In this document: in pieces, positions 1,873-10,467 of the stretch | Position numbering within the stretch: the stretch's first letter is position 1 | How the letters are laid out: each line of letters starts with the position of its first letter | Source: an uncultured Bacilli bacterium | GTDB taxonomy: Bacteria > Bacillota_I > Bacilli_A > RF39 > UBA660 | DNA: 43,127 nucleotides | Assembly: GCA_944358945.1 (NCBI GenBank) | Contig: CALVSH010000028.1 | Coordinates: forward strand, 1 to 43,127 | Reading direction: 5' to 3' | Notes under the pieces: generated by a model | Databases searched by the model: none | Seen by the model: only the letters and a program-made list of their open reading frames with translations | Told to the model about the DNA's origin: nothing | Position numbers and translations under genes: made by a program

Positions 1873-2835
1873 TTACCAGTCTTTTCCGGCTTTAACTGCT
1901 TTTTTATATTTTTTTAATTCTTCTTTTTTGTGTTTTTTCTTTCTTTTACGAGATTCTTTTTCTATATCTCGTTCTTGTTTTTCTATTTGTCTTTTTCCTT
2001 TTTTTAATTTATGTTCTACATGCATATTAAGAACAAATAAATCATGACCACATCTTACGTTATATTTGTCCACTATTTTTAAGTGTGTCTTTAATTTTTT
2101 AGATAGGCAATCAATCAAAGTAAGACGCATTAATGGTTTTAAATTGGAATAACCTAGTCTTTTAAAGGAAATCATAGTTTGTATTTTTCTATTCATATCA
2201 TAAAACTCGATTTTTTCTGGATATACCTGCATATACCAAGTGTGTTCTCTGATATTTTCTTCTTCATTAAACTCTAATATTTTTTGCCAAGGGATAGTTT
2301 TCTTTATTCTAAATGATTTTATAAAATAAATGGTTTTATATATTATAAAAGATAATATACTGCCGATTACTACTACAATAATTAATTGACATAATGTTAC
2401 TAATGGTGTTGCGATTAATAATAAGATTGTGTTTAGTATTAATGTCTTTAATAAATCCATCCATTCAAAGGTGATTGTTCCATGTACACTATAATATAGT
2501 ATAACTGGTACAATAATTGATGATAAAACCATGAGAATAGCACTAGCACATAACATTACTTTGCCACTTAGTGGAATAGAATCTTCATATCCTTCTATCC
2601 ATTTATAGATAAATACAAAAAGTCCAATACAGGTTGATAAAAATATTCCAATTAATATTCCAAGTACTTCTGGATCCATCGTTTTCAAGTCGTTTAAATG
2701 TAAGATGTTTTCTCCTAATGATTTAAAAATAAAATAATTAATTAAAACTATGATGCCAATTAGAATGATTCCACCAAGAATCGTTTTGAGAATATCTTCC
2801 CCCTCGATTTCTTCTACTAAATATCTTTTTCCCAT
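1873..2835 (-). CDS. multi-spanning membrane protein with basic C-terminal tail
   Basis: I do not recognise this 320-residue protein. It has about four hydrophobic spans (roughly residues 17-38, 57-77, 93-113 and 132-172, the last possibly two). A cytoplasmic-type domain follows, and the last 50 residues are extremely rich in Lys, Arg and Glu (RKRKKKHKKEELKKYKK), probably a charged coiled coil able to bind nucleic acid, ribosomes or lipid headgroups. It stands alone, with its own promoter and terminator. Function unknown. Confidence 0.8.
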   Translation of the reverse strand: MGKRYLVEEIEGEDILKTILGGIILIGIIVLINYFIFKSLGENILHLNDLKTMDPEVLGILIGIFLSTCIGLFVFIYKWIEGYEDSIPLSGKVMLCASAILMVLSSIIVPVILYYSVHGTITFEWMDLLKTLILNTILLLIATPLVTLCQLIIVVVIGSILSFIIYKTIYFIKSFRIKKTIPWQKILEFNEEENIREHTWYMQVYPEKIEFYDMNRKIQTMISFKRLGYSNLKPLMRLTLIDCLSKKLKTHLKIVDKYNVRCGHDLFVLNMHVEHKLKKGKRQIEKQERDIEKESRKRKKKHKKEELKKYKKAVKAGKDW

Positions 2836-2892: not shown

Positions 2893-2956
2893 TTTTCATC
2901 TATGGTTAAAGAAATTTGATTTAGTTAGTTTTATTTGTTAATTTTTTCTTGTACTG

Positions 2957-3412
2957 TTATTTTATAAATTTTTTTTGGCATTCATTTGATCTGTCAGAGT
3001 TAAAATATCGCTTGATTTCTATTTCAGCATTTTCTATGGAGTCTGATGATTGCATTAAATTATAAATACGAAGGTCTTTACTATTATGGTAATCTATGTG
3101 ATCTCCACGTATTGTATTGATGGGAATGTATCCTTCTTCTATTGGTCCTATTAATGATTGTGTTTTAGTAATTGCATTTTCTCCTTCTACTATCATTGCG
3201 ATTATTGGTTTTGATAACATAAATTCTTCTAAAATTTGATAACATGGGTCGTCTACTAAATATTCATATTGTTCTTTAATTAACTCTTTTGTTAGTTTTA
3301 TTTCCTTTATGTTTGTAATTACTAGGTTGTTTTCTGCAATTTTTCTCATAGCCTTTAATAATATTATGTCCACTCCGTCTGGTTTAATTATCACACATGT
3401 ACGCTCTTTCAT
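2957..3412 (-). CDS. nucleoside diphosphate kinase-like protein lacking the catalytic histidine
   Basis: The family fold is clear: CVIIKPDGV (residues 6-14, with the conserved Lys), TIRGD (100-104), and an equivalent of the active-site NxxHGSDS segment. That segment here reads NLMQSSDS, so the phosphate-accepting histidine is glutamine (Q121, codon CAA). The arginine normally before the LMG/LIG motif is also glutamine (Q85). Length (151) is normal. I chose the ATG at 3412, which has AGGAAG about ten bases upstream; an in-frame GTG at 3421 is too close to it. By known mechanism it should not transfer phosphate through phosphohistidine. It may be a nucleotide-binding or regulatory pseudoenzyme. 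Confidence 0.85.
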   Translation of the reverse strand: MKERTCVIIKPDGVDIILLKAMRKIAENNLVITNIKEIKLTKELIKEQYEYLVDDPCYQILEEFMLSKPIIAMIVEGENAITKTQSLIGPIEEGYIPINTIRGDHIDYHNSKDLRIYNLMQSSDSIENAEIEIKRYFNSDRSNECQKKFIK

Positions 3413-3568
3413 ACTACTCACACTTCCTACTATTAGTATATCATTTTATGTAATAAGGGAAAGTAAATTTGACATAATTTGATATTTTTTTGTGGATTTA
3501 TGAGTAATTTTTGGGACATCATATCTAATTATTTAAAAATTTTTTTCTTCCCTGGTTATTAGCATATT

Positions 3569-3612: not shown

Positions 3613-4362
3613 ATGAATCAAGATAATTTAGAAGACATCAAGAGAAATTGTTGTCACGAGCAAAAAGATGATTGCTTATGTAGAGTCTTAGATTGTGTCT
3701 GCAAAAAAGGTGTTACTGGTCCAACAGGACCTACTGGACCTACGGGGCCTGCTGGCTGTTGCGGGGAAATGGGTGCGACTGGACCTCAAGGTGTAACTGG
3801 TCCAACTGGTGCGACCGGACCTACTGGGGCAACTGGTATTCAAGGACCTACTGGACCTACGGGTGCAACGGGAGCAAGCGGTGCGACTGGGCCTACCGGA
3901 CCTGCTGGAGAACCTGCTACTAACTTAGATAGTTACGCTATGGTACATGATGAAACCAATTCTACTATTTCTCATAATCAACCTATTTTATTCCAAACTA
4001 CTAATATTTCAAATAAAATTGCTTATAATCCTGCTACTGGAGACTTTACTATTCCTGAAGAAGGAATTTATATTATTCACTGGTGGATTAATGTAAGACA
4101 TAGTGATAGCGAATTGTCTACTTGTGAACCTAGAACACTAGGAGTAGAATTACATCAATTCTGGCCATCAGATGTTCTAATCGCTCACTCTTCAACACAT
4201 AATAAACTTACTTGTTGTGATACTGGTACCATCAGTGGTAATGCAATATTTGCAGCACTTCCTGGAGCTAGTTATCGTTTAATTAATACATCAGGAATTG
4301 ATATTAGCTTAGTACCAAATGACTTATACTCAGCAGCTGTTTCTATTACTAGGATAGTGTAA
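3613..4362 (+). CDS. cysteine-rich collagen-like (BclA-type) surface protein
   Basis: Residues 1-32 form a short head with six cysteines (13, 14, 21, 23, 28, 30). Residues 33-101 are 23 unbroken Gly-X-Y triplets, mostly GPT and GAT, as in BclA-type exosporium filaments; one triplet is GCC. Residues 102-249 form a compact beta-rich C-terminal domain of the kind that trimerises BclA stalks, with more cysteines (STCEP, TCCD). AAGGAGG precedes the ATG by five bases. No signal peptide is present, which fits mother-cell expression and self-assembly on spores. The threonines could be glycosylated. Spore location is inferred from family and sporulating context. Confidence 0.88.
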
Positions 4363-6275: not shown

Positions 6276-6352
6276 TGGTGTCCTCGGGCAGATTTGAACT
6301 GCCGACCTATCGCTTAGGAGGCGATTGCTCTATCCAACTGAGCTACGAAGAC
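6276..6352 (-). tRNA. tRNA-Arg (anticodon CCT)
   Basis: A complete cloverleaf is readable on the minus strand: acceptor GTCTTCG with CGAGGAC, D arm GCTC...GAGC, anticodon stem ATCGC/GCGAT around loop CTCCTAA, T stem GGCAG/CTGCC, discriminator A and an encoded CCA. Anticodon CCT reads AGG. Confidence 0.95.
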
Positions 6353-9369: not shown

Positions 9370-10467
9370 ATGAAAAAGATAATTATTGGGCTTATTCGTC
9401 TGTATCAAAAGATACCTAGTCGTATTCATTTATGTTGTAGATTTACTCCAACCTGTTCTGAATATATGATTGAGGCAATTGAGATACATGGTACGTTATA
9501 TGGTGTTTGTCTGGGGATTTATAGAATTTTACGATGTAATCCTTTTTGTAAAGGTGGATATGATCCAGTTCCTAAAGTAAGGAGAGATAGAATGAAAAGG
9601 AAAAAATTATTATTACTATTCTTATTTTTTATTATGGCAATATTTACTACTACTGGGTGTAAACAAGATGATATGGATGATATTCGTATTTTAGTTACTA
9701 ACTATCCTAATGAGTATATTACGGAAGAATTATATGGAAATCATTCTAGTATTACAGCGGTTTATCCAGATGGTGTAGATACAGAAGAATATGAATTTAG
9801 TAATAAACAGAAAAAAGATTTTAGTAATTATGATTTGTTTATTTATAATGGGCTAATTGAAAAAGAAAGTGATCTAGCGTTTGATTTACTAGATTTAAAT
9901 CCTGATTTAAGAATTATTGATACGGCATATGTTTTAGAGACTGATTATGCACCTGAAGAATTATGGTTAAATCCTTCTTCTTTGCTTATGATGGCTCAAA
10001 ATGTAAGACTGGGCCTTGAGGAATATGTTACTAGTAGTTATATAAAGAAAGATATCGATGAAGCTTATGAGGATTTGAAGGTGGAACTTTCGGAGTTAGA
10101 TGCTGATTATCGGTTGGCTATTGAAAATACTGAAAATAAAACTATTGTGGTAGCAACTTCTACTTTGCAGTATCTAGAAAAATTTGGATTAGATGTTATT
10201 TGTGTTGATGAGGATTCTACAGCAAAGACAATTAGTGATGCTGAAGCACTTATTCAAAATGGAGATATTAATTATATTTATACATTTGAAGGAAATACTA
10301 TCAATGATAGAGCTCAGGAACTATTAGATACTTACCCTGATTTGCAAGAAGCATCTTTACATAAATTAGATAATTTGAGTGATGAAGATAGAACAAACAA
10401 GCTTACTTATCTTAATATTATGAATAATAATTTAGATTTGATTCGTCAAGAATTATATCAAGGATAA
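9370..10467 (+). CDS. yidD: YidD-type membrane protein insertion factor read in frame into a lipoprotein
   Basis: Residues 1-70 are a complete Yid[19 protein letters not shown], the G...RILRCNPF block and GGYDPVP. YidD proteins are normally 70-85 residues, help YidC-dependent membrane insertion and sit near rnpA-yidC. Here no stop codon follows; the frame runs straight into a ZnuA-like lipoprotein whose own signal peptide starts at residue 75, making a 365-residue fusion. A good ribosome site (9579-9584) before that Met suggests the lipoprotein is also, or mainly, started separately. The gene's site away from rnpA/yidC is unusual. Confidence 0.85.
9592..10467 (+). CDS. ZnuA-like substrate-binding lipoprotein without metal-ligand histidines
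   Basis: This is the probable independent product: AAGGAG seven bases before the ATG, a signal peptide and lipobox TTGC (Cys23), 291 residues. The fold pattern is that of cluster A-I (ZnuA/TroA) metal-binding proteins: a first strand IRILVTNYP, then [24 protein letters not shown], a long linker helix and [17 protein letters not shown]. The four usual metal positions are changed: HxYE is here DTEEYE, DPHxW is PEELW, and the HDAF histidine is Thr. No permease or ATPase genes are adjacent. It probably binds something other than zinc or is a structural lipoprotein. Confidence 0.75.

Follow-up and report, generated by a model that had tools for sequence, protein, structure and literature searches.

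The window, by which we mean the whole stretch of 43,127 nucleotides that was analyzed, holds on its minus strand an ndk-like gene (window 2957-3412) whose 151-residue product is a member of the NDP kinase (NDK) family. The gene is read from an ATG at 3412, which is enclosed by a longer minus-strand open reading frame with a GTG start (2957-3421) and is preceded, 10 nt upstream, by an AGGAAG ribosome-binding site recognized by inspection; no promoter was detected immediately upstream of the gene in a consensus scan. The inferred product matches the Pfam NDK profile at 93 bits (1.9e-26, against a cut-off of 27) over profile positions 1-133 of 135, which places it in the family, and it exhibits the KPDG, TIRGD and SSDS motifs. 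It did not reach the NCBIfam ndk equivalog cut-offs, its best score being 91 bits versus 155. An AlphaFold2 model of the protein had a pLDDT of 87.5, the 50 PDB matches listed for this model were all NDKs, with a best E of about 1e-12 and TM-scores of 0.74-0.80 by query length, and the protein is predicted to adopt the ferredoxin-like fold of NDKs. The initial annotation, which described a well-kept NDK scaffold and an intact frame with a good start, was right on both points. The features discussed below are as follows:

2894..3552, no strand: segment of about 660 bp with the ndk-like gene, absent in G012 (blastn of the window versus L130)
2957..3412, minus strand: NDK-family gene, 151 aa; ATG at 3412, stop at 2957-2959 (Pfam, ribosome-binding site, AlphaFold2)
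3050..3052, minus strand: Gln121 (CAA) for the catalytic His, NME2 H118 (alignment, codons)
3116..3118, minus strand: Asn99 (AAT) for an invariant Gly, NME2 G102, before TIRGD (alignment, codons)
3140..3142, minus strand: Ile91 (ATA) for Thr, NME2 T94, a phosphate ligand (alignment, codons; role from PMC7554756)
3158..3160, minus strand: Gln85 (CAA) for Arg, NME2 R88, a phosphate ligand (alignment, codons; role from PMC7554756)
3242..3244, minus strand: Cys57 (TGT) for the base-stacking Phe, NME2 F60 (alignment, codons; role from PMC7554756)

Replacements in the active site

We aligned the window protein with more than 100 NDK genes of public genomes and, as references for residue numbering, with human NME2 and the Ndk of E. 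coli. The alignment confirmed that Gln replaces both the catalytic His and an active-site Arg, as had been proposed, and identified the latter as NME2 Arg88; at the two CAA sites the sibling genes have CAT (His) and AGA, CGT or CGC (Arg88). The damage to the active site is wider than the initial annotation saw, which made no mention of T94I, F60C or G102N, nor of two further replacements, H51Q and G119S (NME2 numbering). Retained are Lys12, Tyr52, Arg105, Asn115, Ser120, Asp121 and Glu129. Altogether, 9 of the 31 near-invariant columns of the alignment are altered in the window protein and 22 (about 70%) are kept.

The catalytic His is present in every other aligned NDK (more than 100 genes), including divergent homologues with Pfam scores of 52-119 bits, and the His-to-Gln change is thus shared by none of these relatives. 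Divergent family and class homologues with low scores, other than the weak G992 and G998, were read as well, and no wider clade of His-less NDKs emerged from them. It had been suggested that the presence of His in all close relatives would point to a recent error. All of them do have His, but several independent replacements and a long branch (see below) speak against that reading, and a single base error was rejected, as at least seven conserved sites differ. An artefact of sequencing or assembly is most improbable: the host genome, which was assembled from a metagenome, is fragmented (1.30 Mb in 102 contigs, 69% complete) and the gene is found in no second genome, but the conserved sites differ together with the frame intact, and the flanks are collinear with G012.

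Other departures from the canonical active site were also seen. The NDK-like genes L121 (G396) and L166 (G805), which come from two other genera of the family, represent another degenerate type, missing the whole Arg88/Thr94 segment and keeping the catalytic His, the opposite loss, and the ndk gene L112 (G344) has Met for Arg88 and HRADS for HGSDS, again with His kept.

Relatives, rate of change and distribution

The nearest genes, L101 (G066; 47% identity) and L111 (G297; 41%), belong to genus g49 of the same family. Like the genes of genus g3, they encode canonical NDKs, and they have in common with the window protein an insert of the KDDENCRTYN type before the active site. Because the nearest relatives are canonical and share this insert, the active-site losses, as judged from these sequences, arose on the window lineage, on a very long branch. 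The window gene was grouped with L101 and L111 in the tree (support 86/94, drawn open), inside a wider set of nine rows (support 97/95). Its end branch measures 5.96, versus 0.12 and 0.43 for the sisters, a length that leaves its exact position uncertain. When eight outgroups were used in relative-rate tests, 23-38 changes were unique to the window gene and 4-11 to the sister (p 0.02 to 1e-7). The window protein is 30% identical to E. coli Ndk, and L101 and L111 are 41-43% identical to it. As a control, RNase J of the window lineage is 56% identical to that of the same two genera (g3 and g49), which are 65% identical to each other in RNase J and 65-71% identical in their NDKs; therefore the gene ran fast, and not the lineage alone. 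A phage origin was rejected: a scan of viral contigs revealed no relative, and the matches in a phage collection were less than 35% identical.

The second, normal ndk gene for which the initial annotation had proposed a search was not found in the 69%-complete assembly, where the His-less gene is the only NDK. The genus is represented by 15 further genomes, none of which has an ndk gene, and ndk is rare in the class, with NDK matches in 38 of 386 family genomes and in 26 of 395 class genomes. (A weakly matching ndk fragment at G914:C3:110196-110429, interrupted by two stops, is possibly a decaying second copy, as the same genome has an intact ndk gene about 6 kb away.) In G012, the closest relative compared (94% identity in RNase J), the genes that match window 1873-2835 and 3613-4362 adjoin without the 660 bp, with a short intergenic gap of about 80 bp between the flanking alignments. 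None of the neighbors of the ndk-like gene recurs beside an ndk gene of g49 or g3. Horizontal gain within the family would be the simplest explanation for the lone ndk gene, with repeated loss of ndk in the genus as a possible alternative history.

Because the 15 other genomes have no ndk, bacteria of the genus evidently live without it. In mycoplasmas that lack ndk, pyruvate kinase phosphorylates all nucleoside and deoxynucleoside diphosphates (PMC6609329), and a pyruvate kinase gene was found in the host genome; a profile match to anaerobic ribonucleotide reductase was also seen, below its cut-off. The NDK enzyme is probably dispensable in the group to which the host belongs.

Probable loss of catalysis, and maintenance versus decay

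The nucleotide contacts of NDKs are a base-stacking Phe, the phosphate ligands Lys, Tyr, Arg, Thr and Arg, a ribose-binding Asn and the nucleophilic His, the conserved phosphate ligands in M. tuberculosis NDK being Lys10, Tyr50, Arg86, Thr92 and Arg104 (PMC7554756). Four of these eight contacts (Phe, the first Arg, Thr and His) are gone from the window protein, which among the phosphate ligands keeps Lys, Tyr and the second Arg and has Gln for the first Arg and Ile for Thr. In mycobacterial NDK, replacement of the His by Gln (H117Q) nearly abolishes phosphotransfer, although residual activity was reported (PMC4668074). Because His, Arg88, Thr94 and Phe60 are all lost, and because H117Q alone has so strong an effect, the window protein very probably no longer works as an NDP kinase. 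Continued activity as an NDP kinase or another phosphotransferase, by way of another nucleophile or of residual in-line transfer, would draw on the kept Lys12, Tyr52, Arg105, Asn115 and Glu129, on the residual activity of H117Q mutants and on two His residues that follow TIRGD (DHIDYH); given that Arg88, Thr94 and Phe60 are lost as well and that no other aligned NDK is without His, we regard it as improbable.

Nucleotide binding is likewise expected to be weakened. The initial annotation had seen in the gene a candidate nucleotide-sensing pseudoenzyme, for which an intact pocket would be looked for. The pocket is instead incomplete, lacking the base-stacking Phe60 and, of the five conserved phosphate ligands, Arg88 and Thr94, while Lys12, Tyr52, Arg105 and Asn115 are retained, and the proposal of a sensor is unsupported.

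The further proposal, that the gene is maintained rather than decaying, holds up in part: frame, ribosome-binding site and predicted fold are kept, but neutral drift can leave the frame open, and the losses do not fall preferentially on the nucleotide contacts (lost at 3 of 7 contacts versus 6 of 24 other near-invariant positions, p=0.38). In simulations of neutral drift that started from the canonical sister and allowed substitutions only, with indels left out, drift sufficient to change nine near-invariant residues introduced 2.8 stops on average, and 7% of the runs were stop-free; this fraction rose to 18% when six of the losses were charged to drift and to 31% when four were. Indels would make an open frame less likely still. 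Differences between the window gene and its sister at codon positions 1, 2 and 3 are 0.35, 0.29 and 0.52, and thus a bias toward position 3 persists; the GC content by codon position resembles that of the neighboring genes. The open frame and kept fold speak only moderately against free decay.

It is nonetheless quite possible that the gene is an early pseudogene, a useless acquisition drifting unselected that has yet to meet a stop or a frameshift. The lack of ndk in congeners, the occurrence in a single genome, the long branch, the scatter of losses across active-site and other conserved positions, the direction of several replacements toward A/T (R27K, H54Y, T94I and G102N) and the open frame in 7-31% of neutral simulations are all in keeping with such a history. 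Against it stand the intact frame, start and ribosome-binding site, the 22 of 31 near-invariant columns that are kept, the persistent position-3 bias, the cut that indels would make in the chance of an open frame, and the confidently predicted fold.

We favor, with a probability of roughly 55%, the view that the window gene encodes a catalytically dead but still folded NDK-family protein, sporadic in its occurrence, in a host for which phosphotransfer by NDK is dispensable. A canonical ndk gene of the g49/g3 type would have been gained horizontally by one species of the genus, a host that would not need NDK, to judge from its congeners without ndk and from pyruvate kinase, which, by analogy with mycoplasmas, may phosphorylate nucleoside diphosphates. 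Constraint on phosphotransfer would then have lapsed, and His, Arg88, Thr94 and Phe60 would have been replaced along one accelerated branch. Because the gene has kept its frame and ribosome-binding site, and the protein its predicted core fold and some 70% of the near-invariant residues, the protein is probably still folded and produced, and any remaining role would be non-catalytic, such as the surface of a folded NDK oligomer or weak ligand binding. Counting against a dead but folded NDK are its occurrence in one genome, losses as unfocused as plain relaxation would give, the 7-18% of stop-free drift runs (for six to nine losses), the lack of an upstream promoter in the consensus scan and the residual activity of mycobacterial H117Q. 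More tentatively, the gene may encode a non-catalytic bacterial NDK that is maintained for a new role in one lineage, a counterpart of the inactive human NME domains; the His-less form was found in one genome only, rather than being conserved among relatives.

Known NDKs and the surroundings of the gene

The window protein resembles bacterial Ndk (PF00334; G066 and G297 of g49) in fold, in length, in the KPDG, TIRGD and SDS motifs and in the insert, with 41-47% identity, and differs in the replacement of His, Arg88, Thr94 and Phe60 and in evolving much faster. Like NME10/RP2 and other inactive human NME domains, it is a natural NDK fold that appears to be without kinase activity, and the NME10 domain also lacks the catalytic His (PMC2777172). 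The inactive NMEs are eukaryotic, however, and NME10 is a partial domain in a larger protein, whereas the window protein is bacterial, full-length and stand-alone. The Mycobacterium H117Q mutant bears the identical residue change at the equivalent site (PMC4668074) but is an engineered protein whose pocket is otherwise intact, whereas the change in the window protein is natural and is joined by others. Neither among the sequences compared nor in the open literature that we searched did we find another bacterial NDK that is naturally His-less, stand-alone and full-length, and the literature search yielded no paper on bacterial NDK pseudoenzymes.

NDK is among the most conserved of enzymes. Many non-kinase roles have been reported for it, which are difficult to disentangle from its catalytic activity. 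An NDK that has naturally lost its phosphohistidine would provide a clean test of such roles in bacteria, and the case illustrates a possible fate of ndk in bacteria with small genomes that mostly live without it. If the gene is merely decaying, it represents ordinary relaxed selection.

Several features of the surrounding DNA are of note in their own right. Beside the ndk-like gene, at window 3613-4362, lies a gene for a collagen-like protein with GPTGPTG repeats and a C1q/BclA-like end, which several genomes of the genus have retained amid changing neighbors. A tRNA-Arg(cct) gene (window 6276-6352) borders a region of changing gene content, and in G005 partial copies of tRNA-Arg(cct) (L138 3791-3851, 8872-8921 and 9132-9172) flank an integrase-like gene. 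Finally, window 9370-10467 is a frame of 365 aa that fuses YidD to a ZnuA-like domain; at the same place G012 has a stand-alone YidD of 77 aa.
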